Origin: Pedobacter sp. ASV12 | Lineage (GTDB): Bacteria > Bacteroidota > Bacteroidia > Sphingobacteriales > Sphingobacteriaceae | NCBI RefSeq assembly: GCF_016429155.1 | Contig: NZ_JAELUC010000003.1 | Span: 62,001 to 126,000, forward strand | Direction: 5' to 3' | Length of the DNA stretch: 64,000 bases | Part shown: positions 4,970 to 21,571 of the stretch, in pieces | Numbering within the stretch: position 1 is the stretch's first letter | Layout: every line of letters starts with the position of its first letter | Translations under genes and position numbers: made by a program | The notes under the pieces: model-generated | What the model saw: only the letters and a program-made list of their open reading frames with translations | What the model was told of the DNA's origin: nothing | Databases searched by the model: none

Positions 4970-5851
4970 CTACAATAGATTGGCTTTTAGGTATTCGCAA
5001 CTGGTTTTTATGGAAGCCAGTTCGTTAGGCTGATAATTGGTTTCATGCTCTACAAAGAAATGTTTGGCACCCGATTGTTTAGCCTGGGCAAAAATAGCCT
5101 TAAAATCGATGGCGCCTTTGCCTACCTCCGTATTGAGGCCATGATTGGTTTTATCCATGTCTTTAACATGCCACATGGTAAAGCGTTTTGGGTGGGCGGC
5201 AAATAGCTTCAGCGGATCGTTGCCCGATCTCACTACCCAATACAGATCCATTTCAAAATCGACCAATTTTTTGTCGGTTTCATTTAACATCACTTCATAG
5301 CCGGTGGTTTCGCCAAATTTCTTGAATTCGAAATCGTGGTTATGGTAGGCTAATTTTAATCCAGCAGCTTTGCACAAGGATCCTGCTTCGTTTAGTCTAG
5401 CTGCTACTTTCTTAAATCCGTCTAAATCTTTTCGCAGGTGGTCGCCCAGGTAAGGAATGGTGATGTATTCAGACCCCAATATGTTGGCGGCTTCAATGTA
5501 GGTTTTAAGCACGTCACTGTTTCCGGTACCGATAAAGCCATCCATGTCGTAATGGCCACTTGGTGCCCTCAGGCCATGCTGTTTCAGCAAATCGCCAAAA
5601 GCTTTGGGGTCGAGCCCCCAAAATTTGTCTCTTTTCGAGTAGCCATAGGTTTCCACCTCGCCATAGCCTGCTTCGGCCACGGCTTTGATAACGCCTTTAA
5701 CATCTTTGGGCAATAAGTCTCTGAGTGAGTAAAGTTGTAGTCCAGCCACTTTTTTCGGCTTGGCAAAAGCCAAGGCGGGCAAGGAAGGCAATAAGGCAGC
5801 GCCTGCTACGAACAGGCCGGTTTGTTTAATAAAGGATCTTCTAGAATTCAT
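4970..5851 (-). CDS. Tat-exported sugar phosphate isomerase/epimerase-like TIM-barrel protein
   Basis: 293 residues. The N-terminus has a twin-arginine signal, SRRSFIKQTG followed by a hydrophobic stretch to about residue 30, so the protein is periplasmic. The rest is an AP-endonuclease-2-type TIM barrel: LQLYSLRDLL (first strand), NHDFEFKKFG, FEMDLYWVVRSG, WHVKDMD and FVEHETNY carry the usual E/D/H/E metal ligands. Family members isomerise or epimerise sugars; relatives in such clusters act as 3-keto-glycoside eliminases or hydratases. It is the last gene of the operon. I infer it acts on a 3-keto sugar released in the periplasm; the exact reaction is not visible. Confidence 0.85.
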   Translation of the reverse strand: MNSRRSFIKQTGLFVAGAALLPSLPALAFAKPKKVAGLQLYSLRDLLPKDVKGVIKAVAEAGYGEVETYGYSKRDKFWGLDPKAFGDLLKQHGLRAPSGHYDMDGFIGTGNSDVLKTYIEAANILGSEYITIPYLGDHLRKDLDGFKKVAARLNEAGSLCKAAGLKLAYHNHDFEFKKFGETTGYEVMLNETDKKLVDFEMDLYWVVRSGNDPLKLFAAHPKRFTMWHVKDMDKTNHGLNTEVGKGAIDFKAIFAQAKQSGAKHFFVEHETNYQPNELASIKTSCEYLKANLL

Positions 5852-5869
5852 ATCAGGATGGTATCGATT

Positions 5870-7108
5870 TTAACTTTGGGCTTCGGTTATGTCTTTGGTC
5901 TTGTCGTTAAAAAGAATGGTAAATAACAAGAACACTACAAAAGCTATTCCAGCAGGGATAATCCAGATCATTTTCCAGTCAAAGCTTCCATCGGCCATAG
6001 CATAGTTGTCTTTAATTAAGCCCGCTATTTCAAATCCAATCAACATTCCTATGCCATAAGTGGCCAAGGTAATTAATCCTTGAGCTGAGCTTTTGAATTT
6101 TTCACCTGCTTTAGAGTTAGTATAAATCTGTCCTGAAACGAAGAAAAAATCGTAACAGATACCATGAAGTGCAATACCTAAAATCAGCATGAAACTTAAC
6201 TCACCTGCATTGCCATAAGCAAATAAAGCATACCGGATGGCCCAAGCTATCATACCCACTAAAATGGTTTTCTTAAAGCCAAAACGTTTAAAGAAAATAG
6301 GGATAAATAATAAAAATATCACTTCAGAGGCCTGGCCAATGGTCATTTTTCCTGTCGGATTATCTACACCAATCGTAGAAAGAAAGAGATTGGCATTTTG
6401 ATAATAGAAAGCCAATGGAATACAGATCAGGATAGATGAAATGAAAAAAATCAGAAAGTTCTTATCTCTTAGCAGTTTCAAAGCATCAAAACCTAATAGT
6501 TCTGAAATCTTTACTTTTTCTGATTTAGCTATTTTAGGTGGTGTTTTTGGTAATAGAAAGCTGAATAGTCCCAAAACGAGGGAAGCTATGCCTGCCATTA
6601 AAAAAGTGTTTTTCAAAAAGCCTGATGCAGTACCCTCTTTTGAATCCCAATGGAAGTAATAACTGATCAATAAGCCGGCTGCTATCCATCCTAGCGTTCC
6701 CCAAATACGAATGGTAGAGAACTCTTTTTCAGGGTCTTTCATTTGGTTAAACGAAACTGAGTTTACTAAGGCTAAGGTAGGCATATAGAGCACCATATAT
6801 ACAAACACATAAGGATAGAATACACTGATGTCTGTAGCTTTGTACATTTGGTACATTAAAATAGCTCCAATAATGTGCAACACTCCTAGAATCTTTTCTG
6901 CATTAAAATAACGGTCAGCAATTAAGCCTATAATAAAAGGTGCAATAATGGCTCCCCATGATTGAGTTGAGAAAACCGATGCTGTTTGCGAGCCTGTAGC
7001 AGTTAAATTAGCTGCTAAAAAGGTTCCTAAGGATACAAACCATGCGCCCCAGATAAAAAATTCCAGGAACATCATGAAAGATAGTTTAAATCTCGTTGTC
7101 GTATTCAT
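5870..7108 (-). CDS. MFS transporter of the nucleoside:H+ symporter-like family
   Basis: 412 residues with about twelve hydrophobic segments. The start (FKLSFMMFLEFFIWGAWFVS) and GLIADRYFNAEKILG match the NupG/XapB-like family, which in Bacteroidota is often found in sugar gene clusters. Within this operon it probably takes a sugar or keto-sugar across the inner membrane. It lies 18 bases before the exported TIM-barrel gene. Base composition is visibly more AT-rich than the flanking genes, suggesting a different history. Substrate is inferred from context only. Confidence 0.8.
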   Translation of the reverse strand: MNTTTRFKLSFMMFLEFFIWGAWFVSLGTFLAANLTATGSQTASVFSTQSWGAIIAPFIIGLIADRYFNAEKILGVLHIIGAILMYQMYKATDISVFYPYVFVYMVLYMPTLALVNSVSFNQMKDPEKEFSTIRIWGTLGWIAAGLLISYYFHWDSKEGTASGFLKNTFLMAGIASLVLGLFSFLLPKTPPKIAKSEKVKISELLGFDALKLLRDKNFLIFFISSILICIPLAFYYQNANLFLSTIGVDNPTGKMTIGQASEVIFLLFIPIFFKRFGFKKTILVGMIAWAIRYALFAYGNAGELSFMLILGIALHGICYDFFFVSGQIYTNSKAGEKFKSSAQGLITLATYGIGMLIGFEIAGLIKDNYAMADGSFDWKMIWIIPAGIAFVVFLLFTILFNDKTKDITEAQS

Positions 7109-7154
7109 TTGGTTTAGTTTGGTTAGTTTAGGGTAGTGGGGGAAGGCAAGTGCT

Positions 7155-7183
7155 GGGAGGTTTGATTTGTCCTCAAACCTCCC
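7155..7183 (-). other. Perfect hairpin inside the sugar-oxidation operon
   Basis: Stem GGGAGGTTTGA (7155-7165), loop of seven (7166-7172), matching arm 7173-7183. It sits in the 90-base gap between the DUF1080 gene and the transporter gene. No T run follows on either strand, so it is more likely an mRNA processing or stabilising hairpin than a full terminator. Confidence 0.6.
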
Positions 7184-7198
7184 AATTTAAGCCTGTTT

Positions 7199-7894
7199 TT
7201 AAAGTTCTTTAATCATGATATTTCTGTACCATACTTCGTCGCCATGGTCTTGCAAAGCGATTTTACCGGTTTTGAAAGTGCCGAAGCCCTCCCATTTGGC
7301 AAATTTGCTACCCGCAATCAGCGATTTCCAGTTGTCGTCCCAAAGCGTGGTGTTCACTACGGTTACGCCGTTCAGCTTGAAGGTTAATTTGCCCTTATTG
7401 CTGATGATTTCGGCTTTGTTCCATTCGCCAACCGGTTTTACAGGTTCCGACGAACTTTTGACTAGGTCGTACAAATCGCCGGCACGGTGCTTGGTGATTT
7501 TTCCATCTGGATGCCCGTCGTTATCCAATACCTGCATTTCTGGGCCTGTGCTGTAAGTTTGGCCATATTTTGGCAATTCTTCATGCACATAAAAAATAAT
7601 GCCGCTGTTTGATTTCGGGGCTACCTTCCACTCGAGGCTCAAATGGAAATTGGAATATTCCTTATCGGTTACAATATCGCCGCCATCGTTGTTCTTGGCC
7701 TTCGGATTAAAGTGGAGCACGCCGTCTTCGGCTTTCCAGCCTTGGCCAACCGTAGTTTTGCCATAAGTATGCCAACCGGTAGTAGTTTTGCCATCGAATA
7801 ACCATTTAAAGCCTTTAGGCAATTTGGCGGTTTGCGCAGCGGCGCCGTAGCCCATGGCCAGTAGCAATGCCGCTGATAATAGGTATTTGTTCAT
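7199..7894 (-). CDS. DUF1080 / 3-keto-disaccharide hydrolase family protein
   Basis: 231 residues. Signal peptide 1-20 (MNKYLLSAALLLAMGYGAAA), so periplasmic. The body is the concanavalin-like DUF1080 fold (PF06439): FKWLFDGKTTTGWHTYG at the start, LSLEWKVAPKSNSGIIF and GPEMQVLDNDGH in the middle, LQDHGDEVWYRNIMIKEL at the end. Characterised relatives hydrolyse 3-keto-disaccharides such as 3-keto-trehalose. With the GMC dehydrogenase genes in the same operon, cleavage of the oxidised glycoside is the natural role. Gap of 39 bases from the gene before it. Confidence 0.88.
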   Translation of the reverse strand: MNKYLLSAALLLAMGYGAAAQTAKLPKGFKWLFDGKTTTGWHTYGKTTVGQGWKAEDGVLHFNPKAKNNDGGDIVTDKEYSNFHLSLEWKVAPKSNSGIIFYVHEELPKYGQTYSTGPEMQVLDNDGHPDGKITKHRAGDLYDLVKSSSEPVKPVGEWNKAEIISNKGKLTFKLNGVTVVNTTLWDDNWKSLIAGSKFAKWEGFGTFKTGKIALQDHGDEVWYRNIMIKEL

Positions 7895-7933
7895 CTGTTA
7901 GGATATTTTTAGTGTTAACGTTTTAGAAATTAA

Positions 7934-9391
7934 TTAAGCGCCCAAAGTCCAGCCTTTGCGATATTCTCTTTTTACGAATTGGTTCACATCGTCAAAATTG
8001 GTCACCTTCATTTGGTCGTTATCCCAAAGCAATTTGGTATACCTGCCTGGGTAAATGATTTTTCCGTCGGCATTTTTCTTTTGGATATCGGCGCCACGGA
8101 TGGCCAGGTTGGCCATGAGCAAGGCTTCAGTTAGCGGGCCGGCAATTTCGAACGGCGAGCTCAGTTCGTTTTTGCCGTAGCCGGCGATAGCCGCTTCTAC
8201 CCACTGGGCATAGTGGCCGTTGGCCTGGTTAGGTACGCGGGCAAATTTTGGACGCACTTTGATATCGGCGTTTTTTGATAGAGGCAACAAGCGGGGGTTG
8301 GCACTGTAGGTGCTGGCCATCATTTTGCCTTTGGTGCCGATAAACAAGGTGCCGTTGCCACCATCGCCAAAGGTTTCGTTGGCCTGCAGTTCTTCCGGCC
8401 TTTCCGGCTGAATACCGCCATCCATCCAATGTACGGTTACATCGCCTTTGGTTTTGTTGGTTTTTGGAAATTTAAGGGTAACATGGCTCGATGGCGGGCA
8501 GCTTTCGGGGAAATAGCCTCGCTGAAACTCATCTACGTAAACAGAACCTACGCTGGCTTGTACTTCGGTAGCGTATTTCAGGTTCAATACGCTAAATGGT
8601 GCTTCTAACAGGTGGCAGCCCATATCGCCTAAGGCACCGGTGCCATAATCCCACCAGCCACGCCAGTTAAAAGGCACCAATTTGTTTACATAATCCTTAT
8701 AGGGAGCGGTGCCTAGCCATAAATCCCAGTCGAGCTCTTTCGGGACCTCGGCTTTATTGGCAGACCAGGCAATACCCTGTGGCCAAACCGGTCTGTCGGT
8801 CCAGGCGTAAACGGTATGTACGTCGCCAATGAGGCCGGCATCGTACCATTCCTTCATTTGACGCGGTCCATCGTTTGAGGCACCTTGGTTACCCATTTGG
8901 GTTACTACTTTATACTTTTTGGCGGCTTCGGTTAAGGCGCGTGCTTCGTAAATATCGTGAGTAAGGGGTTTTTGCACATAAACGTGCTTGCCCAACTGCA
9001 TGGCGGCCAAGGTTTGTATGGCGTGGTTGTGGTCGGGGGTTGATACCGAAACCGCATCGAAGTTTTTATGTTCTTTTTCATACATTTCGCGCCAATCGCG
9101 GTAGTACTTTGCTTTTGGAAAGTCTTTAACGCTTTTGGCTGCCCGGCGATCATCCACATCGCAAAGGAAGGCGATATCGGCCTTGCCACTGGCGGCGAAT
9201 GCCGCAATGTCGCTTTGTCCCTTGCCACCTACACCCACACCGGCAACCAACAGCCTATCGCTTGGTGCCAAAAAGCCCTTGCCGCCCAAAACGTGGCGTG
9301 GCACAATCATAAAAGCGGCCGTAGCAATGGCTCCAGCCTTAATAAAATTACGTCTACTCTGTGATTCCGCTTCTTGTTTTCCCTTTTCCAT
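7934..9391 (-). CDS. Tat-exported Gfo/Idh/MocA family oxidoreductase
   Basis: 485 residues. Twin-arginine signal SRRNFIKAGAIATAAFMIV at about 12-30, so it is exported folded with its cofactor. The nucleotide-binding motif is AGVGVGGKGQSD (about 50-61). VSVSTPDHNHAIQT and KHVYVQKPLTHDIYEA (the usual EKP is QKP here) define the family. Exported members carry a bound nicotinamide cofactor; some are GH109-like glycosidases that work by transient oxidation at C3. That chemistry fits the cluster but the activity is inferred. It follows the cytochrome gene by 23 bases. Confidence 0.85.
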   Translation of the reverse strand: MEKGKQEAESQSRRNFIKAGAIATAAFMIVPRHVLGGKGFLAPSDRLLVAGVGVGGKGQSDIAAFAASGKADIAFLCDVDDRRAAKSVKDFPKAKYYRDWREMYEKEHKNFDAVSVSTPDHNHAIQTLAAMQLGKHVYVQKPLTHDIYEARALTEAAKKYKVVTQMGNQGASNDGPRQMKEWYDAGLIGDVHTVYAWTDRPVWPQGIAWSANKAEVPKELDWDLWLGTAPYKDYVNKLVPFNWRGWWDYGTGALGDMGCHLLEAPFSVLNLKYATEVQASVGSVYVDEFQRGYFPESCPPSSHVTLKFPKTNKTKGDVTVHWMDGGIQPERPEELQANETFGDGGNGTLFIGTKGKMMASTYSANPRLLPLSKNADIKVRPKFARVPNQANGHYAQWVEAAIAGYGKNELSSPFEIAGPLTEALLMANLAIRGADIQKKNADGKIIYPGRYTKLLWDNDQMKVTNFDDVNQFVKREYRKGWTLGA

Positions 9392-9414
9392 TAGTTTAGT
9401 TTTTTAAGGTTTGA

Positions 9415-9798
9415 TTATTTCTTGAGCGATAAGATGTATTTTACCATCAGCTGTGCATCGTCGTTGCTGATTTTAGGATGCGGTGTCATCGGAACAGCGC
9501 CCCAAGTACCTTTGCTTCCCTTGATGATTTTTCCGGCCAATGCGGTTACTGTTTCTGGTGTATTTGGGTATTTGGCTGCGATTTCCTGGTAAGCCGGCCC
9601 GATCAGTTTATCTTCTTTGTGATGGCAACCGATACAATCTGATTTAACGATCAATAATTCGCCTGGATCCATAGCCGGCTTGGCTGCTGCAGGCGCTGGG
9701 GTTTCGGTATTGGCCGTTGATGATTCGTCCGAACTTGAACCGCCGCAAGCTGTGAGAAATAGGGCGATTCCGCTTAAAAATAGGAGTGTTTTTTTCAT
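9415..9798 (-). CDS. Lipoprotein c-type cytochrome (class I)
   Basis: 127 residues. Lipobox LTAC at 15-18 (lipid anchor), then a Ser/Thr/Ala/Pro-rich linker to about residue 42. One haem site CIGCH at about 55-59 and a candidate methionine ligand in GAVPMTPHP. Monohaem c cytochromes of this type take electrons from GMC flavoproteins in the glucoside 3-dehydrogenase system. In this operon it is likely the electron acceptor of the dehydrogenase encoded upstream, passing electrons to the respiratory chain. Confidence 0.9.
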   Translation of the reverse strand: MKKTLLFLSGIALFLTACGGSSSDESSTANTETPAPAAAKPAMDPGELLIVKSDCIGCHHKEDKLIGPAYQEIAAKYPNTPETVTALAGKIIKGSKGTWGAVPMTPHPKISNDDAQLMVKYILSLKK

Positions 9799-9817
9799 TT
9801 GTGTAGGGTATTGTTGT

Positions 9818-10870
9818 TTAAATGCCTAATATTTTTTGGTTAAAGCCGGTATCGCCACCCGAGGCCGCAAAATCGTCGAATGCCTTGGTGGTTACCGGAA
9901 TGATCTGTTTTTTAATGAATTCGGCTCCTTCACGGGCACCGGTTTCAGAATCCTTGATGCAGCATTCCCATTCCATAACGGCCCAGCCTTTAAAGTCGTA
10001 TTGTGCCAATTTGCTAAAAATACGTCTAAAATCGACCTGGCCATCGCCTGGCGAACGGTAGCGGCCTGCCCGGTTGGCCCAGCTTTGATAGCCTCCAAAA
10101 GTGCCTTGTTTGCCTGTAGGATTAAATTCGGCATCTTTAACGTGGAATGCCTTAATGCGTTCGTGGTAAAAATCGATGTATTGGATATAGTCTAACTGCT
10201 GCAATACAAAATGCGAGGGATCGTACAGCAAGCAGGCCCTTGGGTGCTGGTTTACCTTGTCTAAAAACATTTCATAGGTTTCGCCATCAAAAAGGTCTTC
10301 GCCTGGATGTATTTCGTAGCAAACGTCTACGCCACACTGGTCAAATTCGTTGAGGATAGGCAACCAGCGCTTGGCCAATTCCTTAAAGCCATCTTCTACC
10401 AAGCCTTCGGGGCGTTGCGGCCAAGGGTGGAAAGTATGCCAAAGCAGGGAGCCGCTAAAGGTAGCGTGCGCATTTAAGCCCAGGTTTTGCGAAGCCTTAG
10501 CGGCATATTTCATTTGTTGTACAGCCCATTCGGTTCTGGCTTTCGGATTGTTTCTTACTTCTGGTGCGGCGAAGGCATCAAACAACTGGTCGTAGGCTGG
10601 ATTTACAGCCACCAATTGGCCCTGCAAATGCGTAGACAGCTCGGTAATGGCCAAGCCGTAAGAAGCCACTTTGGCCTTCAATTCGTCGGCATAGGTTTTG
10701 CTTTCGGCTGCTAGTTTTAAATCGATGAAGCGTGGGTCGAGTGTAGGAATTTGGATGCCTTTAAAGCCCAAGCTGGCCGCCCATTGGCAAATGCCATCGA
10801 GCGAGTTGAAAGGTGCTTCGTCTCCAATAAACTGGGCTAAAAATATGGCTGGTCCTTGTATCGTTGTCAT
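9818..10870 (-). CDS. Cytosolic sugar phosphate isomerase/epimerase-like TIM-barrel protein
   Basis: 350 residues, no signal peptide. AP-endonuclease-2-type barrel with metal ligand segments VCYEIHPGE, LLYDPSHF, FHVKDAEF and VMEWECCI, in the order E-D-H-E. The GRYRSPGDGQVDFRRIF stretch is typical of the family in keto-sugar clusters. Relatives in gut Bacteroides and Agrobacterium split 3-keto-glycosides by elimination or isomerise the resulting keto sugar. The stop of the preceding gene is 6 bases upstream, so the two cytosolic enzymes are tightly linked. Reaction inferred. Confidence 0.85.
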   Translation of the reverse strand: MTTIQGPAIFLAQFIGDEAPFNSLDGICQWAASLGFKGIQIPTLDPRFIDLKLAAESKTYADELKAKVASYGLAITELSTHLQGQLVAVNPAYDQLFDAFAAPEVRNNPKARTEWAVQQMKYAAKASQNLGLNAHATFSGSLLWHTFHPWPQRPEGLVEDGFKELAKRWLPILNEFDQCGVDVCYEIHPGEDLFDGETYEMFLDKVNQHPRACLLYDPSHFVLQQLDYIQYIDFYHERIKAFHVKDAEFNPTGKQGTFGGYQSWANRAGRYRSPGDGQVDFRRIFSKLAQYDFKGWAVMEWECCIKDSETGAREGAEFIKKQIIPVTTKAFDDFAASGGDTGFNQKILGI

Positions 10871-10876
10871 TTTGTT

Positions 10877-12031
10877 CTAAATTTTAAAATCGTACCATTT
10901 TTGGTCTGATTTACTCGAGGCTACTACATTTTCTATGAAGGCCATTCCCCTTACGCCATCGTTGACGTCTGGGAAATCAAGCATAAAAGGGCTTGGGGTT
11001 TTGCCATCCAGCCTGGCTGCTAAAGTCAGCGCAAAATTCTTATAGATATTGGCAAAAGCCTCAAGGTAGCCTTCAGGGTGTCCGGATGGGGTTCTGGTGT
11101 TGAATTTGGCAATTTCGCTTACATAGGCATTGCCAGTGCGGTAAACCTGCATGGGCTGATCGAGCCATTTCACGATTAAGTTATTAGGCTCCATTTGGTG
11201 CCATTCCATGCCGCCTTTTTCGCCATAGATTTTAATTTTTAAGGCGTTTTCTTCGCCGGCAGCAATTTGCGAAGCCATTAAAGTGCCATTGGCGCCATTG
11301 TTAAACCTGAGGAGCACGTTGCCATCGTCGTCGAGCGCGCGACCATTTACAACAATGTGGAGGTCGGCACAGATCTTGGTGATTTGCAGGCCTGAAATAT
11401 ACTCGGCCAAGTGCGCGGCGTGTGTGCCCACATCGGCCATGCAGCCACTGATACCGCTTTTAGCAGGATCGGCGCGCCAGGCTGCTTGCTTGTTGTCGCT
11501 GGTGGCAGGTTGGCTTAGCCAGCCTTGTGGATATTCTACGCATACTTTTCTGATGGTGCCCAACGCGCCATTTTTGATCATCTCTTTGGCTTGTTTTACC
11601 ATTGGATAACCTGAGTAGGTATGCGTTAGGCAAACAAAAAGTCCGGTTTCATCGGCTTTCTGCTTCAGTGCTTTGGCTTCGGCCAGGGTTAAGGTAATAG
11701 GTTTGTCTATCACCACATGAAATCCATTTTCGAGCGCCAGCATAGCGGGTTCAAAATGCAGGTTGTTTGGGGTAACGATGCTTACAAAATGCATGCGCTC
11801 GTTTTCGGGCAGCTGCTTTTCTTGGGCAATCATCTGCTGATAGCTTTCGTAAATCCTACTGGCAGGCAACATTAAATCTCTGCCAGATTCTAAAGCTACC
11901 TTGGGATCGGAGCTTAATGCTGCACAACTGAGTTCTATCAATCCATCTAATTGGGCCGACATGCGGTGAACTGCGCCAATAAAGGCTTTGCGTCCGCCAC
12001 CAATCATGCCCATTCGTATCTTGCTTTGCAT
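10877..12031 (-). CDS. Cytosolic Gfo/Idh/MocA family oxidoreductase
   Basis: 384 residues from ATG at 12031; extending the frame to 12061 would need a TTG start. No signal peptide. NAD(P)-binding MGMIGGGRKAFIGAVHR at the start, SIVTPNNLHFEPA, and VVIDKPITLTLAEA (DKP in place of EKP). GCMADVGTHAAHLAEYI carries the conserved GxH catalytic area. Enzymes of this branch reduce 3-keto sugars or oxidise sugars at C3. It likely pairs with the isomerase-like gene 6 bases downstream. Direction and substrate are inferred. Confidence 0.87.
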   Translation of the reverse strand: MQSKIRMGMIGGGRKAFIGAVHRMSAQLDGLIELSCAALSSDPKVALESGRDLMLPASRIYESYQQMIAQEKQLPENERMHFVSIVTPNNLHFEPAMLALENGFHVVIDKPITLTLAEAKALKQKADETGLFVCLTHTYSGYPMVKQAKEMIKNGALGTIRKVCVEYPQGWLSQPATSDNKQAAWRADPAKSGISGCMADVGTHAAHLAEYISGLQITKICADLHIVVNGRALDDDGNVLLRFNNGANGTLMASQIAAGEENALKIKIYGEKGGMEWHQMEPNNLIVKWLDQPMQVYRTGNAYVSEIAKFNTRTPSGHPEGYLEAFANIYKNFALTLAARLDGKTPSPFMLDFPDVNDGVRGMAFIENVVASSKSDQKWYDFKI

Positions 12032-12040
12032 AGTATTTTG

Positions 12041-12116
12041 GGGTGTAGGGTTTAAGGCCAAAGGCGTAGGGCTGGTTTAGCCTTACACCTTTAACCTTTT
12101 TGCCTTCTACCTTTAT
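12041..12116. repeat. Degenerate heptamer tract with strand switch (A)
   Basis: 12081-12116 reads as units of about seven bases beginning CCTT (CCTTACA, CCTTTAA, CCTTTTTG, CCTTCTA). 12041-12075 is the same kind of tract on the other strand. The junction (12061-12093) can fold as a 13-pair imperfect hairpin with a GGTTT loop. It fills the 88-base gap between the GMC and Gfo/Idh genes. Confidence 0.6.
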
Positions 12117-12119
12117 TGA

Positions 12120-13820
12120 TTAAATGTTTCCTTTCTTTAATTCGCTTACTGCGTAATCGGCCGCTCTGGCGGTTAAGGCCATAAAAGTTAGCGATGGATT
12201 TTGGCAGGCAATAGAAGGCATGCATGAACCATCGGTGACAAATACATTTTTTACCTCGTGCATTTGGTTCCATTTGTTCAGAACCGAGGTTTTAGGGTCT
12301 TTGCCCATGCGCGCGGTTCCCATTTCGTGGATGGCCATGCCCGGTACAGAGCCATTATCGTAGGTTTTTACGTCCTTAATGCCTGCATCTTCCAGCATTT
12401 CGGCGGCATCGTTCATCATGTCTTGACGCATTTTGTATTCGTTGTCGCCAAACTCGCAATCGATAGCTAATACGTGCTGGCCCCATTTGTCTTTTTTGGT
12501 TTTGTCGATATACACCCGGTTTTCGTGGCGCGGTAGCGATTCGCCGAAACCGCCCAAGCCCATGCTCCAAATGCCTGGTGTAGAAATCAAGTCTTTGAAA
12601 TCGCCACCAAAAGCCAATTCGGCAATGTCTTTGTGCCAGCCCGAACGGCCTGCACCGCCTTGGTAGCCGAAGCCACGGAGGTAATCGCGTTTATCGTTGC
12701 CGATGTTTCTGTAGCGAGGAATATAGATGCCGTTTGCTCTCTTGCCGTAAGTATATTTATCGTCGAAACCTTCGGCGGTACCCGAGGCGCCGCAACGGAA
12801 ATGGTGATCCATTAAATTATGGCCCAATTCGCCACTGGCGTTGCCCAAACCATTTGGGTGTTCGGCAGAAGTAGAATTGAGCAGCAAGAAAGTGGTGCCC
12901 AAAGTAGAACCATTTACGAAAACGATCTTGGCGAAATACTCATGATGTTCCATGGTTTCCGAATCGATTACACGCACGCCTTTCGCTTTTTGGGTCTCTT
13001 TATCGTAAATGATTTCGTTTACCAAAGAAAAAGGGCGTAGGGTTAGGTTTCCGGTTGCTACAGCTGCTGGCAGGGTAGAAGATTGGGTACTGAAATAAGC
13101 ACCAAACGGACAGCCACGGCTACACAAGTTGCGGTATTGGCAACTGCCACGGCCCCCATGCTCTACGGTGAGGTTTGCCGTACGACCAATAGTCATGATA
13201 CGGGCTTTGTTGTATTTTTTTTCGATGCGCTCTTTTACAGATTTTTCTACGCAGTTCATCTGCATCGGAGGCAGAAAATGTCCGTCGGGAAAGTGGGGAT
13301 AGTTTTCGACCTGGCCACTGATGCCTGCAAATTTCTCTACATAATCGTACCAAGGGGCGATATCCTTGTAGCGGATCGGCCAATCAACGCCATGTCCGTC
13401 TTTGGCATTTTCTTCAAAGTTCAGGTCGCTTAAACGGTAGCTTTGGCGTCCCCACATCAGCGATTTGCCCCCTACATGGAAACCACGGTACCAATCGAAG
13501 CGTTTGACCTCGGTGTAAGGGCACTCCAAATCGTTTACCCAAAAGCTTTCGTTATACTCTTGATAAGGATAGTCGCGTTTTTGTACCGGATGCGTCTTTT
13601 TCTGCTCTTCGGTTAGTCGACCGCGGTGTTCAAATTCCCATGGCTTTTTCATGGCCGTGGTATAATCCTTAATATGTTCAATGTTTCTGCCCCTTTCGAG
13701 CATCAATACTTTTAAACCTTTTTCGGTTAGCTCTTTTGCTGCCCAACCTCCGCTAATACCCGAGCCTACTACAATGGCATCGTAAGTGTTTTGTGCGGTA
13801 GCTTTTGTATTTAAGTTCAT
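12120..13820 (-). CDS. GMC-family FAD dehydrogenase large subunit (glucoside 3-dehydrogenase type)
   Basis: 566 residues. FAD-binding motif AIVVGSGISGGWAAKEL (about 15-31). The cysteine cluster CQYRNLCSRGC (C-x5-C-x3-C, about 228-238) resembles the [3Fe-4S] ligand set of FAD-dependent glucose and glucoside dehydrogenases. The catalytic His/Asn pair lies in GMAIHEMGTARMG and ACQNPSLT near the C-terminus. There is no signal peptide, as usual for this subunit, which is carried out by its Tat-signal partner. Expected reaction: oxidation of the C3 hydroxyl of a glucoside or disaccharide in the periplasm, with electrons going to cytochrome c. Confidence 0.9.
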   Translation of the reverse strand: MNLNTKATAQNTYDAIVVGSGISGGWAAKELTEKGLKVLMLERGRNIEHIKDYTTAMKKPWEFEHRGRLTEEQKKTHPVQKRDYPYQEYNESFWVNDLECPYTEVKRFDWYRGFHVGGKSLMWGRQSYRLSDLNFEENAKDGHGVDWPIRYKDIAPWYDYVEKFAGISGQVENYPHFPDGHFLPPMQMNCVEKSVKERIEKKYNKARIMTIGRTANLTVEHGGRGSCQYRNLCSRGCPFGAYFSTQSSTLPAAVATGNLTLRPFSLVNEIIYDKETQKAKGVRVIDSETMEHHEYFAKIVFVNGSTLGTTFLLLNSTSAEHPNGLGNASGELGHNLMDHHFRCGASGTAEGFDDKYTYGKRANGIYIPRYRNIGNDKRDYLRGFGYQGGAGRSGWHKDIAELAFGGDFKDLISTPGIWSMGLGGFGESLPRHENRVYIDKTKKDKWGQHVLAIDCEFGDNEYKMRQDMMNDAAEMLEDAGIKDVKTYDNGSVPGMAIHEMGTARMGKDPKTSVLNKWNQMHEVKNVFVTDGSCMPSIACQNPSLTFMALTARAADYAVSELKKGNI

Positions 13821-13921
13821 TTGTCTGTTGTTTTGTTTTCAGTGGTTTTTCAGTTCTTTCGGCTTGCCTGTTATGCAATGGGCAATGCCTCAATTGGTTC
13901 AGAACTTTTGGTAGATTAAGT

Positions 13922-14569
13922 TTATGCCCAAACCCTTTGGCCCGGTTTAAGGTCTACGCAACCATCATAGCGGCCTGGGATTTGTACGTATTCATAGGCT
14001 TGTGTTGCGCCAACCTCTGATGTAAAGAAGCCCAGCATGGTCAGGTCTCTGGCAATGGCAAAGAAGTAAGATTTGCCAGGAGGCTTTTCTTTAACCGTCA
14101 TTGGATTGCCTTGTTTGTCTGTAGCCTTTGATTGCTCATCCAGTTTTTTCTGTTTTTCGCCATCTTCTTTCTGCTCAGCTACTGTTTCGTCGCGAAGCTT
14201 GGTTACCAATTGTTCGCGCTCTTTGACCGATATGGCAAGGAAAGATTTGCCGAACTCTTTTTTCGAACGGTCTTCTAAACCTTCGAGGCCCTTTACAAAA
14301 GTTTTTTGCGCTTCGTCGGGATAACATTCTTTCACCATCATGATAATGAAAGGTCCTACATTGGCGGCTTTGGCGCCCGGTGATTTTGGGGTGGTTGGAA
14401 TAATGATGTCGGCCAGCTCTGTAACAAGTTTTTCTTGGTCGGCAGTGAACAAGTGCGCACTGTCTTTACCCGGCTCATTGCAGCTGTCGAACAAGGTTGC
14501 CAAGGTAGTTGCCGATAGGGCTCCACCAATTAAGAAGGCAACACTTTTTACGGCTTCTCTTCTGTCCAT
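13922..14569 (-). CDS. Gluconate 2-dehydrogenase subunit 3 family protein (small subunit of the GMC dehydrogenase)
   Basis: 215 residues. Starts MDRREAVKSVAFLIGGALS, a twin-arginine-like signal, and reaches a lipobox-like LFDSC at about 27-31, so it is exported and perhaps lipid-anchored. The core (TELADIIIPTTPKSPGAKAANVGPF) is the PF13618 signature. A Lys/Glu-rich insert at about 130-165 is longer than I would expect. It ends with YEYVQIPGRYDGC. In known enzymes this subunit escorts the FAD subunit through Tat. It is the first gene of the operon, 101 bases before the GMC gene. Confidence 0.9.
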   Translation of the reverse strand: MDRREAVKSVAFLIGGALSATTLATLFDSCNEPGKDSAHLFTADQEKLVTELADIIIPTTPKSPGAKAANVGPFIIMMVKECYPDEAQKTFVKGLEGLEDRSKKEFGKSFLAISVKEREQLVTKLRDETVAEQKEDGEKQKKLDEQSKATDKQGNPMTVKEKPPGKSYFFAIARDLTMLGFFTSEVGATQAYEYVQIPGRYDGCVDLKPGQRVWA

Positions 14570-16731: not shown

Positions 16732-17508
16732 CTATTTATGCTGGCTTAAAAGCCATGGCAACAATTCGGGTTCGGCAAAAGCACTATCCCAGCTGTTATG
16801 GTTGGCCTTGAGGTAAATGGTAAATTTGGGTTCGTGCCCCAGCTTTTTAAGCTCTCGGTAAATGCCGTAAGAAAACTGTGGCGAAACTACATCGTCCAAG
16901 CCACCATGAAAAATCCAAAGCGGTACATGTTGGTATTTCTTTGCGTTGGCCACGTTATCGCCACCACAAATGGCAAAGGCCGCTGCAAAGGTTGAAGGCC
17001 TGCGCCTCAAGACCTCAAAAGTACCCATGCCTCCCATCGATAGGCCACCTACATAGATTTTGTTTTTGTCGGCAAAGGGTTGTTTAACCATTTTATCGGT
17101 TAGCTGCAGCAAAAGCGACATCGATTGGGTAGGCTCCCCGCCTTTCACAAAAGTGAAAAAACGTTTGGTGTTAACGGCTTCGATCTCTACATTGGCCCAA
17201 TAGCTTTGCTCGGCGCACTGCGGAAAAATAACCACCGCTTCAAATTTTTTCCTGAAATCATCAGCTAAAAACATCTGGGCACCATGGGTTAGTTGTTTTT
17301 CATTGTCATTGCCGCTTTCGCCACGTCCGTGCAAAAAGAATACGATTGGGTATTTCTTTGCAGGGTCAAAATGCTCGGGATATAAAATCCTGTATTTTAA
17401 AGTATCTGCCCCCTGAACCAGGATTTCCTTCTTGAATTGAGAAAAATCTTGCGCTTTTGCTTGAACAAGTGCTAGAGCAAAACACCATAAGGCGATTAGT
17501 TTTTTCAT
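16732..17508 (-). CDS. Secreted alpha/beta hydrolase (predicted esterase/peptidase, COG4099-like)
   Basis: 258 residues. Signal peptide 1-19. PIVFFLHGRGESGNDNEKQ carries the oxyanion region, VGGLSMGGMGTFEV the serine nucleophile (GLSMGG), and LKANHNSWDSAF the histidine; GLDDVVSP is the likely acid. Similar proteins in polysaccharide loci are carbohydrate esterases. Last gene of the locus, 5 bases after the GH3 stop, so co-transcribed. A role in removing acyl groups (for example succinyl groups on periplasmic glucans) is inference. Confidence 0.8.
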   Translation of the reverse strand: MKKLIALWCFALALVQAKAQDFSQFKKEILVQGADTLKYRILYPEHFDPAKKYPIVFFLHGRGESGNDNEKQLTHGAQMFLADDFRKKFEAVVIFPQCAEQSYWANVEIEAVNTKRFFTFVKGGEPTQSMSLLLQLTDKMVKQPFADKNKIYVGGLSMGGMGTFEVLRRRPSTFAAAFAICGGDNVANAKKYQHVPLWIFHGGLDDVVSPQFSYGIYRELKKLGHEPKFTIYLKANHNSWDSAFAEPELLPWLLSQHK

Positions 17509-17513
17509 CGGAT

Positions 17514-19826
17514 TTATTTTACCAGTTTGAAATCTGCTGTTTTCACGTCTCTTACATTTGGTCCAATAAATGCCTTGAAATCGCCGGCTTCGGCAACATA
17601 CTTCAGCTCACTATTGTAAAACTTCAAGGCTTCTTCGTCGATGTTAAAGCTTACGGTTTTGCTTTCGCCGGGTTGCAGGCTTATTTTTTGGAAACCTTTC
17701 AATAGTTTTACGGGTCTGGTGCTGCTGCCTACCATATCGCGGATGTAAAGTTGTACTACTTCTTCACCTGCATATTTGCCAGTATTGCTCACGGTAATGC
17801 TGGCGGTTATTTTTTGGCCAGGTTTGAGGGTGTTGGTGTTCAATTTCAAATCGCCATAGGCAAAAGTGGTGTAGCTTAAGCCAAAACCGAAAGGATAGAG
17901 TGGGTCGTTGCTGACGTCTAAATAGTTAGAACGGAATTTTTGGAACCACTTGCCATCTTCTAACGGACGTCCAGTATTTTTGTGGGCATAGTACAATGGC
18001 AGCTGACCTACGTTTTGCGGAAAGGTTACCGGGAGCTTGCCCGATGGGTTTACATTGCCAAACAATACATCGGCAATGCCATTTCCTGCCTGAATACCTC
18101 CAAACCAAACGTTTAAGATGGCCGGTACGTTCTCATTTTCCCATACCAGGGTCATTGGCCTACCGGCAAAGAGCACCAAAACTACCGGTTTTCCGGTTTT
18201 AACCAAAGCTTTCAATAATCTTTGTTGTACAGCTGGAATGCCCAAATCGGTGCGACTAGAGCTTTCGCCACTCATTTCCGATGATTCGCCTAAAGCCGCT
18301 ACGACAACATCGGCTTTTTTTGCGTTTTCAACAGCTTCCTTAATCAGTTCTTCTTCGCTGCGGTTGTCTCTAGGAATTTCTCTGCCAAACATGGTCGAAT
18401 GGGCCTGCAAAGTCGCATCGGCGGTGAGGTTAGCGCCTAGGCTATGCAAAATCTTTACCTCGCTGCCGGCCACGTTTTTAATGCCTTCCAGCAGGGAAGG
18501 AACGATGGCCATATCGGCATTTACACTCCAGGTACCGGGCATGTTGGCTTTGCTATTGGCCAAAGGCCCCACCAAGGCAATGGTGCCCGATTTCTTAAGT
18601 GGCAATACCTGGTTCTGGTTTTTGAGCAAGACAAAGGTCTTGGCAGCGGTTTCTCTGGCAAACTGGATGTTGGCCGGAGTAAGGATTTCGTTTTTGGCTC
18701 TTTCTTCGCTGCAGTATTTAAACGGATCGTCGAATAAGCCCAGTTTGTATTTGGCTTCTAAAATCAAGCGGCAAGCCCTGTCGATTTCGGCTTGTGTTAC
18801 TTTGCCGTCCTGGAGCGATTTTTTAAGCGTGGTTAAGAAGCCTTCGCTCACCATGTCCATATCGTTGCCTGCTTTTAGGGATAATGCCGAAACGGTCTTC
18901 AAGTCGCCCAAGCCATGGTCGATGAGTTCGCTTACGCCGGTATAGTCTGATACTACAAAGCCTTTAAAGGCCCATTGCTTGCGTAAAAGATCGGTAAGCA
19001 GCCATTTGTTGGCAGTGGCTGGTACGCCATTGATATCGTTGAATGACACCATGATGCTGCCCGCGCCGGCATCTAAAGCGGCTTTGTAGGGCGGCAGGTA
19101 ATCGTTGTACATGCGGTCTAGGCTCATGTCGGTGGTATTGTAGTCTCTGCCACCCTCTGCGGCGCCGTACAAGGCAAAATGTTTAACGCAGGCCATGATG
19201 GTGTTTACCTTGGTTAGGTCGTCGCCTTGGTAACCCTTAACCATTACCTTGGCAATTTCGGAACCTAAAAAGGTATCTTCTCCGCTGCCTTCGGCAATCC
19301 TGCCCCAGCGTGCATCACGAGCGATATCAACCATCGGCGAGAAGGTCCAGTTCAGGCCGTCGGCACTTGCTTCGGTAGCCGCTATGCGGGCTGTTTTCTG
19401 GATCAGTGGCATATCCCAGCTGGCCGCCAAGGCCAAAGGGATAGGGAAGGTGGTTTTATAACCGTGTATGACGTCCTGTCCGAAAATCAAAGGGATTTTC
19501 AAACGGCTCTTCATCGCTATTTCTTGGGCTTTTCTGATTTTTTGTGGGGTAGTTAAGCTAAAAATCCCTCCTACGTTTCCCTTGGCTATCTTCGATTCTA
19601 CATCGGTGCTTACGGCCGAGCCAGTAGTGGCCTCGCCACCGGTAACGAGGTTAAGCTGACCAATCTTTTCGTCGATCGTCATTTTGGTCATCAGGTTTTT
19701 GATGAAGGAATCCATTTTTGCTTGCTGCGGATTGGTTGTTTTTTTGACCTGTGCCGAGCTGGCCAATGCAAAAAGGGCCAATAAAGTAAATAGGAAAGGT
19801 GTTTTTTTCATTATGTGTGTATTCAT
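17514..19826 (-). CDS. Glycoside hydrolase family 3 beta-glucosidase
   Basis: 770 residues from ATG at 19826 (ATG at 19811, MKKTPFLFTLLALFALASSAQ, is equally possible and gives a clean signal peptide). Periplasmic. GH3 N-terminal barrel with GQDVIHGYKTTFPIPLA, the KHFALYGAAEGG loop and nucleophile aspartate in FKGFVVSDYTGVSEL; C-terminal alpha/beta domain with AALGESSEMSGES; fibronectin-III-like tail. Of the GH3 enzymes, those next to GH144-like genes act on sophorose and short beta-1,2-gluco-oligosaccharides. Starts 1 base after the GH43 stop. Confidence 0.92.
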   Translation of the reverse strand: MNTHIMKKTPFLFTLLALFALASSAQVKKTTNPQQAKMDSFIKNLMTKMTIDEKIGQLNLVTGGEATTGSAVSTDVESKIAKGNVGGIFSLTTPQKIRKAQEIAMKSRLKIPLIFGQDVIHGYKTTFPIPLALAASWDMPLIQKTARIAATEASADGLNWTFSPMVDIARDARWGRIAEGSGEDTFLGSEIAKVMVKGYQGDDLTKVNTIMACVKHFALYGAAEGGRDYNTTDMSLDRMYNDYLPPYKAALDAGAGSIMVSFNDINGVPATANKWLLTDLLRKQWAFKGFVVSDYTGVSELIDHGLGDLKTVSALSLKAGNDMDMVSEGFLTTLKKSLQDGKVTQAEIDRACRLILEAKYKLGLFDDPFKYCSEERAKNEILTPANIQFARETAAKTFVLLKNQNQVLPLKKSGTIALVGPLANSKANMPGTWSVNADMAIVPSLLEGIKNVAGSEVKILHSLGANLTADATLQAHSTMFGREIPRDNRSEEELIKEAVENAKKADVVVAALGESSEMSGESSSRTDLGIPAVQQRLLKALVKTGKPVVLVLFAGRPMTLVWENENVPAILNVWFGGIQAGNGIADVLFGNVNPSGKLPVTFPQNVGQLPLYYAHKNTGRPLEDGKWFQKFRSNYLDVSNDPLYPFGFGLSYTTFAYGDLKLNTNTLKPGQKITASITVSNTGKYAGEEVVQLYIRDMVGSSTRPVKLLKGFQKISLQPGESKTVSFNIDEEALKFYNSELKYVAEAGDFKAFIGPNVRDVKTADFKLVK

Positions 19827-19827
19827 G

Positions 19828-21570
19828 TTATTCAACTTTTTTAATGGGTGTTTTGGCTGAAACACCGTTTTCGTTTATGGCTTCTATCGTGAAATAGTAG
19901 GTTTTCTGGCTGTCCATAGCCTTGAACCAGTATTCGTTAAAATCGTGGATCATGATGCAATTGTACAGCTTGTCGGGCGCGGTGCCGTAGTAAAGGTTGT
20001 AAGCAAATGCATTATCTACCGGTTGCCATTTGATGTAGGCGCTGCGTTTGTCTTTTTCGGTACGCAAAACAATCAGGTTTTTAACCGCTTCGGGTTTTTC
20101 GCCATTGCCGTTGCCAAATACCCTCAATCCGCTAATGGCAAATTTGCCGGTTGGCATATGGATGTTCACCATTTTGATGAAACGGGCTTGTACGGGTTTG
20201 CTGAGTTCGATGTAATCATGGGGTACATCGGTTTTGTTCTGGCTCTTGTCGGACAAAGTGCTCCATTTTTTGCCATCGAGCGAATACAGCAATTTGTACT
20301 GGTGGTAAATATTGGTCTGCTTGCCCATAAACTCGGCGTCTTGATCGGCATAATTGATTTGGATGGCATTAACGGTTGAAACGTTGCCCAAATCTGTCTG
20401 GATCCATTCGCCGTTGTTGGCCGTTTTGGCGCTCCAATAGGTTTTGATGTTTTCGTCAACGGCGTTGTTGGCATTAAAGCCTGCCAAGGTAGACGAAACG
20501 GTTACTGGTTTTTTATAGTTGACGAGCATCCAACCCGGACCAGCGGGGCCATCAGGTTTTCTGGCGGCAGGCAGGTAAAGCGGATAATCGCCAAAGGCGG
20601 TATTGCACCACATCACATCGTCTTTGTCAAAACCACTTGGCCAAATACCAATGCGCCTTTCCCAAGTATTTTTTACGCAGATGATCGAAGTAGAAACATG
20701 CCAATAGTTTTGTTGGTTATCCTGAAAAGTGGCGCCATGGCCAGCACCTCTCGAAAAGCCACCTGGCTTAAAGCTCAGGGGGTCGGATTGCGGCGTGGTT
20801 TGGGCGCCATCAAAAAGTGGTTTGTTGCCTACTACCACGCCGTCGGCATAACCGCTAAACTCGGTTCCCGGCGCGCCGTATTGGAAATAGTATTTGCCGT
20901 TGTGCTTGGTCATCCAGGCACCCTCAATAAAAGGGTCGAGAAAAGTATTGTCCATGTGCTCGCCAAAGCGCTGCCAGCCAAAGCGCCAATCTTGCAACAA
21001 GTACATGGGCGTACGTGTGCCTATGGGTTTGAAGGTTTTGCGGTCGAGCTCTACACCATATACCGGAAAGGTATTGCTGCTGCCGTTGTACATGTAAAAA
21101 CGGCCATCGTCGTCGGTGAAAAAGGCCGGGTCCCAGCCCCCAATTTCCAGCGAATCGACTAGTGGAAACCATTTGTTGTTTTTGGGGTCGGTGCTTCCCC
21201 AAAGGGTAAAGTTTTTGGTATAGGTACTGCCAAAAACCACCATGGTATCGCCAACCACGCCCACGCCTGGTGCGCAAAGCTCATCAAGGGTCTTGTTCCA
21301 GGGGCGTAAAAATTTTCTTTCGTTAAACTTCCAGTTGAGCATATCGCTGCTGTGCCAATAACCCCATTGGTTAGTGCTGAACAGGTAGTAGTCGCCTTTG
21401 TAGTTTACAATAACAGGATCGGCGGTGGCGCGATGCTTGCCCCATTCTACAAAGCTCGGAAAAGGCGTATAGCCATAATCGAGGTTAATAGGGTTACAGT
21501 AGGTCTGTTGCTGTGCAAAGCCCGTCGATACACTGAAAAGAACAAACAATAGGCCTAAGACTTTCTTCAT
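19828..21570 (-). CDS. Glycoside hydrolase family 43 protein with F5/8-type C and FN3 domains
   Basis: 580 residues. ATG at 21570 is chosen because the longer frame (to 21597) overlaps the preceding gene and would mask the signal peptide MKKVLGLLFVLFSVSTGFAQ. The five-bladed propeller has the expected acids in ATADPVIV, GGWDPAFF and DPFIEGAWM. A discoidin (F5/8C) domain (about 345-475, SSTLAGFNANNAVDENIKTY) and an FN3 domain (about 480-580) follow. GH43 enzymes remove arabinose, xylose or galactose; a GH43 is not part of the known beta-1,2-glucan set, so its substrate here is open. Confidence 0.88.
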   Translation of the reverse strand: MKKVLGLLFVLFSVSTGFAQQQTYCNPINLDYGYTPFPSFVEWGKHRATADPVIVNYKGDYYLFSTNQWGYWHSSDMLNWKFNERKFLRPWNKTLDELCAPGVGVVGDTMVVFGSTYTKNFTLWGSTDPKNNKWFPLVDSLEIGGWDPAFFTDDDGRFYMYNGSSNTFPVYGVELDRKTFKPIGTRTPMYLLQDWRFGWQRFGEHMDNTFLDPFIEGAWMTKHNGKYYFQYGAPGTEFSGYADGVVVGNKPLFDGAQTTPQSDPLSFKPGGFSRGAGHGATFQDNQQNYWHVSTSIICVKNTWERRIGIWPSGFDKDDVMWCNTAFGDYPLYLPAARKPDGPAGPGWMLVNYKKPVTVSSTLAGFNANNAVDENIKTYWSAKTANNGEWIQTDLGNVSTVNAIQINYADQDAEFMGKQTNIYHQYKLLYSLDGKKWSTLSDKSQNKTDVPHDYIELSKPVQARFIKMVNIHMPTGKFAISGLRVFGNGNGEKPEAVKNLIVLRTEKDKRSAYIKWQPVDNAFAYNLYYGTAPDKLYNCIMIHDFNEYWFKAMDSQKTYYFTIEAINENGVSAKTPIKKVE

Positions 21571-21571
21571 T

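Follow-up and report, generated by a model that had tools for sequence, protein, structure and literature searches.

Related gene clusters

Three published clusters are among the closest points of comparison for the locus described here, which lies in a 64,000-nucleotide stretch of Pedobacter sp. ASV12 (the window). In the accessible parts of these reports, each encodes two dissimilar proteins of the isomerase/epimerase type along with one or two Gfo/Idh proteins or reductases (PMC7676230, PMC10628242, PMC9007349). The lac cluster of Caulobacter and its Bacteroidetes counterparts are described as including LacABC, a DUF1080 protein, a transporter, two epimerases and a reductase, and in Indibacter, Algoriphagus and Halomonas the LacA and DUF1080 genes are reported to lie close together, accompanied by further similar genes (PMC9007349, excerpts). 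The window holds the same parts list, a likeness based on the description of the genes rather than on sequence, and carries in addition a Tat-signalled BT_2158-like Gfo/Idh protein. The same excerpts report that in another Pedobacter a putative lactose dehydrogenase matters for lactose, salicin and other glycosides, and that none of 10 DUF1080 genes had a lactose phenotype, for which the authors suggest possible redundancy.

In Agrobacterium, AtOGE frees the aglycone from 3-keto-phlorizin, and AtHYD together with a Gfo oxidoreductase completes the route to glucose, on preliminary evidence (PMC10628242, in part). As far as these parts describe it, the A. tumefaciens GlycDH operon shares with the window a GMC-type dehydrogenase, a lyase that keeps the AtOGE active site in the window, a hydratase and a reductase, the last three being putative in the window. 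It differs in that the window lyase is Tat-signalled and that DUF1080, cytochrome and MFS genes lie inside the window cluster. The lgdA-lgdB1-lgdB2-lgdC genes of Bacillus smithii encode two oxidoreductases and two unlike "isomerases" for oxidation, elimination, hydration and reduction; unlike in the window, the genes listed in the accessible part of that report include an ABC transporter and no GMC enzyme, cytochrome or DUF1080 protein (PMC7676230). In view of these clusters, the initial annotation went too far in suggesting that the duplicated layout was less described.

The BT2156-BT2160 genes of Bacteroides thetaiotaomicron encode relatives of the exported Gfo/Idh, lyase and DUF1080 proteins of the window. 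The structures 8tcd, 8tct, 8tdf and 8tda presumably stem from work on this pathway. To our knowledge, the Bacteroides cluster has neither a GMC/cytochrome enzyme nor a hydratase of the 8ro4 type.

Gene content and order

Nine open reading frames, all on the minus strand, occupy positions 4970-14569 of the window as initially annotated, with intergenic distances of 6-101 bp:

13922..14569, minus strand: Gluconate_2-dh3 small subunit of GMC dehydrogenase (PF13618, 120 bits; twin-arginine N-terminus)
12120..13820, minus strand: GMC FAD catalytic subunit, probable glycoside 3-dehydrogenase (GMC_oxred_N/C; C-x5-C-x3-C; no signal peptide seen)
10877..12031, minus strand: cytosolic Gfo/Idh, probable 3-keto-glucose reductase (PF01408/PF22725; 3v5n, 371 bits)
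9818..10870, minus strand: cytosolic TIM barrel, probable 2-hydroxy-3-keto-glucal hydratase (8ro4, 539 bits, residues 1-350)
9415..9798, minus strand: lipoprotein-like mono-haem cytochrome c, probable GMC electron acceptor (PF00034; CIGCH; lipobox by eye)
7934..9391, minus strand: Tat-signalled BT_2158-like Gfo/Idh, probable periplasmic glycoside 3-dehydrogenase or reductase (8tdf, 324 bits)
7199..7894, minus strand: DUF1080 (3-keto-disaccharide hydrolase) protein, probably exported (PF06439, 178 bits; Sec-type signal by eye)
5870..7108, minus strand: MFS transporter of the Nuc_H_symport family, possible keto-sugar importer (PF03825, 383 bits)
4970..5851, minus strand: Tat-signalled TIM barrel, probable 3-keto-glycoside lyase (beta-eliminase) (8tct, 118 bits; AtOGE 8bvk, 94 bits)

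The Pfam profile search, gene by gene from 4970 upwards, gave AP_endonuc_2 TIM barrel, Nuc_H_symport/MFS, PF06439 (DUF1080), Gfo/Idh, cytochrome c, AP_endonuc_2, Gfo/Idh, GMC and Gluconate_2-dh3, in agreement with the domains first assigned. Spacing and conservation suggest an operon. In a scan of the cluster, neither promoter-like matches (15 against a mean of 18.0) nor terminator-like matches (12 against 15.8) exceeded shuffled sequences.

Two sets of loci were compared. The first comprised 40 stretches picked by strong GMC matches or from the same genome, and is therefore not a random sample; the second comprised the loci of the best 80 of at least 594 hydratase matches. All nine gene kinds occur in the same order in 14 of the 20 family loci in the first batch retrieved, themselves picked by strong GMC matches; some of the 14 have additional copies of the lyase gene or one gene inserted. 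The complete nine-gene set was found in 12 of the 80 hydratase loci (best 80 of at least 594 matches), and in 9 of the 51 where the stretch reached 20 kb or more. The cluster is mostly ordinary, since its enzymes belong to known kinds and it recurs in close relatives. Identity thresholds (%) for locus counts were: lyase 30, MFS 40, DUF1080 40, exported Gfo/Idh 55, cytochrome 30, hydratase 60, cytosolic Gfo/Idh 40, GMC 45 and small subunit 25; counts exclude matches below these values and loci L077-L079. Only matches covering at least 40% of the query were kept, and ORF calling started at 90 aa.

Dehydrogenase, DUF1080 protein and transporter

The C-x5-C-x3-C motif of the GMC protein begins at residue 227. 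The protein aligns with glucose dehydrogenase 6a2u, the three cysteines included, and its nearest solved structures are glucose and fructose dehydrogenases. All 102 relatives with at least 45% identity retain the three cysteines; these rows, like the 88 lyase relatives below, merge both locus sets and are not independent because some genomes occur twice (e.g. L040 and L080). The gene is single-copy in its own genome (93.8% complete) at E 1e-40. As in LacABC-type enzymes, a small subunit with a twin-arginine N-terminus (by eye) and a cytochrome c with CxxCH at residue 55 are encoded in the same cluster, so that all the dehydrogenase parts first listed are present. The motif is of the iron-sulphur type and the enzyme a probable glycoside 3-dehydrogenase, which would oxidize C3.

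The DUF1080 hydrolase is likewise borne out: its product scores 178.2 bits against PF06439, above the gathering score of 26.8, matches structures 8tda, 8rr2 and others, and has six matches in its own genome. A transporter does lie within the cluster. MFS proteins at 40% identity or more occur in 34 of the 80 hydratase loci (best 80 of at least 594 matches), and the protein is a possible keto-sugar importer. That the Nuc_H_symport family is named for nucleosides counts against this role.

Two TIM barrels and two Gfo/Idh proteins

The isomerase-like and Gfo/Idh enzymes had each been described as present twice, once with and once without a Tat signal. By eye, twin-arginine N-termini are indeed found on 4970-5851 and 7934-9391 and not on 9818-10870 or 10877-12031. 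The duplication itself holds at the level of the fold and not as copies: identity is 23% between the TIM barrels (279 aligned positions, BLAST E 1e-4) and 25% between the Gfo/Idh proteins (359 positions, E 8e-11), and in both pairs the best characterised relative differs between the members. Searched against characterised keto-sugar enzymes, as had been proposed, the TIM barrels match eliminases (8tct, 8bvk) and a hydratase (8ro4) respectively, that is, different clades.

In a tree of 65 rows, where the lyase rows are a limited subset taken in name order, 4970-5851 falls in the clade of 3-keto-glycoside beta-eliminases (AtOGE, 8tct, 8tcd; support 97/93). The Mn site and catalytic His of AtOGE (H132, H134, D163, H189, E233) are all matched; H170, H172, D202, H228 and E268 of the window protein are kept in 88, 88, 88, 87 and 86 of 88 relatives, the remainder being gaps. 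The protein is probably a 3-keto-glycoside lyase releasing 2-hydroxy-3-keto-glucal. Its gene is single-copy in its own genome (93.8% complete) at E 1e-4 and is duplicated in several Pedobacter relatives.

The cytosolic TIM barrel matches 2-hydroxy-3-keto-glucal hydratase 8ro4 over its full length and forms one clade with it (support 98/96, same tree), which makes it a probable hydratase of this type. The structure record names the molecule and not the organism; 8ro4 is presumably AtHYD of Agrobacterium. The gene is single-copy at E 1e-60 in the same 93.8% complete genome. At 36 of the 80 hydratase loci (best 80 of at least 594 matches), 21 of them on stretches of 20 kb or more, no lyase homologue was found in the fetched stretch; the hydratase thus often occurs without a lyase partner nearby.

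The exported Gfo/Idh protein scores 483.9 bits against NCBIfam BT_2158_fam, under the curated cut-off of 750; it is related to this family and was not filed as a member. At 1e-8 it has six matches in its own genome (93.8% complete), of which five share 27-33% identity with it. Its homology and signal point to a probable periplasmic glycoside 3-dehydrogenase or reductase. The cytosolic Gfo/Idh protein is a probable 3-keto-glucose reductase. It was rejected as a levoglucosan dehydrogenase (NCBIfam), scoring 115.6 bits against a curated cut-off of 650, a further difference from the B. smithii lgd genes. It is encoded in the hydratase stretch at 69 of the 80 loci (best 80 of at least 594 matches), and in Devosia and Pelagibacterium, too, homologues with 47-49% identity stand next to the hydratase.

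Conservation of the export signals

Among the 75 Bacteroidota loci within the best 80 of at least 594 hydratase matches, all 52 lyase rows carry a Tat-like signal, as do all 27 exported Gfo/Idh rows at 55% identity or more and 51 of 52 small-subunit rows. The small subunit scored negative (L097, 26% identity) in fact opens with twin Arg, and one lyase counted as Tat-like (L082) has Arg-Lys in place of Arg-Arg, which the pattern permits. The signal is present in 1 of 75 hydratase rows, due to an upstream start, and in none of the 66 cytosolic Gfo/Idh or 61 GMC rows. Control parts in these loci gave 1/66 (cytochrome), 1/42 (DUF1080) and 0/34 (MFS). Candidates raised by a looser pattern were rejected by eye: hydratase L091 was an ORF extended upstream, and L117, L118, L120 and L144 have an ordinary N-terminus running into the barrel. 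The lyase homologues of Devosia and Pelagibacterium have no Tat signal.

A sequential pathway and its alternatives

Gene content, homology, active-site residues and export signals, with their conservation, are read directly from these data; activities, substrates, the transport step and co-transcription are what we infer. Homologies and export signals agree with a 3-keto-glycoside pathway whose parts lie in two compartments, as first proposed. The placement of the TIM barrels in eliminase and hydratase clades, together with the different relatives matched by the two Gfo/Idh proteins, makes the parts look like successive steps. We consider it likely that they form one sequential pathway (oxidation, elimination, import, hydration, reduction) rather than parallel routes. 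In the periplasm, the LacABC-type enzyme (GMC FAD/Fe-S subunit, Tat small subunit and lipoprotein cytochrome c) would oxidize the glycoside at C3, the small subunit carrying the GMC subunit out, and the Tat-signalled BT_2158-like Gfo/Idh might share in this oxidation. The Tat-signalled lyase would then remove the aglycone by beta-elimination to yield 2-hydroxy-3-keto-glucal, while the DUF1080 protein may convert other 3-keto-glycosides to 3-keto-glucose. The MFS protein would bring keto-sugars in, the cytosolic hydratase would convert the glucal to 3-keto-glucose, which the second Gfo/Idh would reduce to glucose with NAD(P)H. The Agrobacterium findings and the role of the other Pedobacter's putative lactose dehydrogenase favour this pathway. 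Counting against it are the BT_2158_fam score below the cut-off, the lack of a lactose phenotype for the 10 DUF1080 genes of that Pedobacter, and the many hydratase loci that hold no lyase homologue or fewer than all nine genes.

Periplasmic 3-keto-glucose formed by DUF1080 could leave the cytosolic hydratase without an obvious need. DUF1080 might then provide the main periplasmic cleavage, its 3-keto-glucose being imported by the MFS protein and reduced by the cytosolic Gfo/Idh. The lyase would play an auxiliary part with other aglycones, and the role of the hydratase would be limited to salvaging glucal that is formed or leaks in. Periplasmic DUF1080 hydrolysis with possible keto-hexose reduction has been proposed, and BT2157 is cited as a 3-ketotrehalose hydrolase (PMC9007349, excerpts). 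A Phyllobacterium plasmid also fits: its hydratase gene and a Gfo/Idh gene lie next to an ABC importer, and neither a GMC nor a lyase homologue was found in that stretch. We nevertheless regard this as unlikely: in each of the 23 loci of the first set that show both proteins, the hydratase is better conserved than the cytosolic Gfo/Idh, which suggests a main role for the hydratase, and the Tat lyase is kept, even multiplied in those Pedobacter relatives.

The initial annotation favoured parallel periplasmic and cytosolic routes for keto-sugars. On this reading, each compartment would have a separate oxidoreductase and isomerase-like enzyme, and both sets would act on one class of 3-keto-glycosides. 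The two pairs with opposite export signals are compatible with this, and a hydratase can have some lyase activity, since LgdB2 of B. smithii partly substitutes for the lyase LgdB1 (PMC7676230, in the part available). Yet the TIM barrels are split between lyase and hydratase clades, identity within the pairs is as low as given above, and AtHYD is inactive on 3-keto-phlorizin (PMC10628242, excerpts). As the pairs belong to different functional clades, parallel routes are rejected as the main reading and appear quite improbable. A polyol pathway such as that for inositol, in which the TIM barrels would be inosose dehydratases, deserves hardly any weight: the matches to the IolE (49 and 69 bits, cut-off 290) and IolG models (57 and 59 bits, cut-off 355) are far under the cut-offs, and keto-sugar enzymes match far better.

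The sequential pathway can be extended tentatively, at somewhat under even chances, to the Bacteroidota at large. Elimination and hydration would be separated by the inner membrane, with a Tat lyase making the reactive 2-hydroxy-3-keto-glucal outside and a dedicated MFS permease importing it for hydration and reduction inside. The titles and abstract openings searched, a scope that leaves most subscription journals aside, hold no statement of a lyase/hydratase split across the membrane. A single good experiment would be informative for many genomes, given that the Bacteroidota loci examined conserve the split. The apparent duplication is recast as a stepwise pathway, and what is new is the question of which keto-sugar would be carried across the inner membrane. 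The fate of periplasmic 3-keto-galactose is named as an open point in the accessible part of PMC9007349; the transporter, hydratase and reductase of the cluster would take such keto-sugars inside and convert them to a common hexose. If this is true, the glycoside would in effect be hydrolysed across the membrane and the keto-sugar retained for its producer.

Organisation of the cluster

Nine genes follow one another on the minus strand from 14569 down to 4970, separated by intergenic gaps of 6-101 bp and carrying the domains attributed to them by the initial annotation. Domains were assigned by Pfam search and export signals were read by eye from the sequence.

Genes of the cluster in transcription order, with basis of assignment
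13922-14569, minus: Tat small subunit (domain search, signal reading)
12120-13820, minus: GMC dehydrogenase (domain search)
10877-12031, minus: cytosolic Gfo/Idh (domain search, signal reading)
9818-10870, minus: cytosolic TIM barrel, "hydratase" (domain search, signal reading)
9415-9798, minus: cytochrome c (domain search)
7934-9391, minus: Tat Gfo/Idh (domain search, signal reading)
7199-7894, minus: DUF1080 (domain search)
5870-7108, minus: MFS transporter (domain search)
4970-5851, minus: Tat TIM barrel, "lyase" (domain search, signal reading)

Clusters of this type are already known. Nearby on the same strand (16732-21597) are encoded an esterase-like protein, a GH3 family glycosidase and a GH43-like protein bearing an F5/8 type C domain; these may be conventional glycosidases acting on the same glycans or on others.

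Two pairs of different enzymes

The isomerase-like enzyme and the Gfo/Idh oxidoreductase had each been described as present twice, but both pairs consist of different enzymes. The two TIM barrels share 23% identity in pairwise comparison. Structure-database matches of the lyase are 8tct, 8tcd, 8tcs and 8bvk (AtOGE, the Agrobacterium tumefaciens 3-keto-glycoside beta-eliminase), while the hydratase aligns over the entire length with 8ro4, a solved 2-hydroxy-3-keto-glucal hydratase (539 bits). They fall in separate clades of a 65-row tree, the lyase with AtOGE, 8tct and 8tcd (support 97/93) and the hydratase with 8ro4 (98/96), and the tree software cautions that joins this deep bring long branches together; the grouping of AtOGE with two alphaproteobacterial homologues is weaker (95/68). 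Residues H132, H134, D163, H189 and E233, named for AtOGE (PMC10628242), align with H170, H172, D202, H228 and E268 of the lyase, which are conserved in 88, 88, 88, 87 and 86 of 88 relatives respectively, the remainder being gaps.

The Gfo/Idh proteins are 25% identical (pairwise comparison); the Tat-signalled one matches 8tdf (324 bits) and the cytosolic one 3v5n (371 bits). Against the BT_2158 family model the former scores 483.9 bits, under the cut-off of 750. Homologues of the latter adjoin the hydratase in Devosia and Pelagibacterium as well.

Compartment split across relatives

Tat-like signals were counted with a pattern of our own (an R-R/K motif, then an uncharged stretch) rather than a trained predictor, on rows above identity thresholds from 75 Bacteroidota loci located via the hydratase. 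They occur in 52/52 lyases, 27/27 exported Gfo/Idh and 51/52 small subunits, and in 1/75 hydratases (an ORF with an upstream extension), 0/66 cytosolic Gfo/Idh, 0/61 GMC, 1/66 cytochromes, 1/42 DUF1080 and 0/34 MFS proteins. In related enzymes a Tat partner can carry a GMC subunit out. The compartment split is conserved among the Bacteroidota loci examined. The same pattern detected no signal on the lyase homologues of alphaproteobacterial loci (0/2). The portions of the pathway literature available to us contain no statement placing lyase and hydratase on opposite membrane sides, although one may be published.

Distribution and lineage variants

GMC matches at E 1e-40 or better occur in 115 of 151 Sphingobacteriaceae genomes, and hydratase matches at 1e-60 in 57 of 296 Bacteroidota genomes. 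Among 20 family loci chosen from strong GMC matches, 14 retain all nine gene kinds in order, in some cases alongside an inserted gene or additional copies of the lyase. In one further locus only a cytochrome went undetected. The 80 best-matching hydratase loci in named genomes (of at least 594 matches; 29 stretches are below 20 kb) contain all nine kinds in 12 cases, cytosolic Gfo/Idh in 69, cytochrome in 57, GMC and small subunit in 46 each, lyase homologue in 44, DUF1080 in 42, MFS in 34 and exported Gfo/Idh in 27. No lyase homologue accompanies the hydratase in 36 of these 80 stretches, including 21 that span 20 kb or more, which counts against a simple story. On a plasmid of Hymenobacter volaticus eight of the nine kinds are present; the exported Gfo/Idh is missing, and the DUF1080 protein reaches just 26% identity.

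The MFS-to-lyase interval is only 18 bp in the window. In three of four relatives inspected it holds a third TIM barrel, itself Tat-signalled (L039:5769-6650, L080:14571-15452, L084:14929-15813; L046 has no row), which branches away from both lyase and hydratase in the tree. Several Pedobacter relatives (loci L044, L045, L046, L047, L052, L081 and L083) carry two adjacent Tat lyase genes past the MFS gene; the window has one. Elsewhere in the same genome (L071, C218:94645-97975), a 481-aa open frame contains two tandem DUF1080 domains and is flanked on either side by a Tat-signalled Gfo/Idh homologue with 24-28% identity to the window protein.

On a Phyllobacterium plasmid (L078:8928-16008) a LacI regulator, hydratase, Gfo/Idh and ABC sugar importer lie side by side; the stretch, whose gene table is incomplete, yielded neither a GMC nor a lyase homologue. 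This locus looks like one for scavenging, and fits import of keto-sugars produced elsewhere.

Proposed pathway

The four-step chemistry has been demonstrated in Bacillus smithii (PMC7676230), and elimination in Agrobacterium, where the authors call the evidence for later steps "preliminary" (PMC10628242). Two reports argue against a simple story: none of ten DUF1080 genes of another Pedobacter strain gave a lactose phenotype (PMC9007349), and B. thetaiotaomicron deleted for BT2157 or BT2158 showed unimpaired growth on raffinose family oligosaccharides (PMC11501099).

We infer all enzyme activities in this organism. Glycosides would be oxidised at C3 in the periplasm and cleaved there, by beta-elimination through the Tat lyase or by DUF1080; the keto-sugar would be imported by the MFS protein, then hydrated and reduced to glucose in the cytosol. 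Periplasmic oxidation and cleavage, import, and cytosolic hydration and reduction are the most likely working mode of the cluster.
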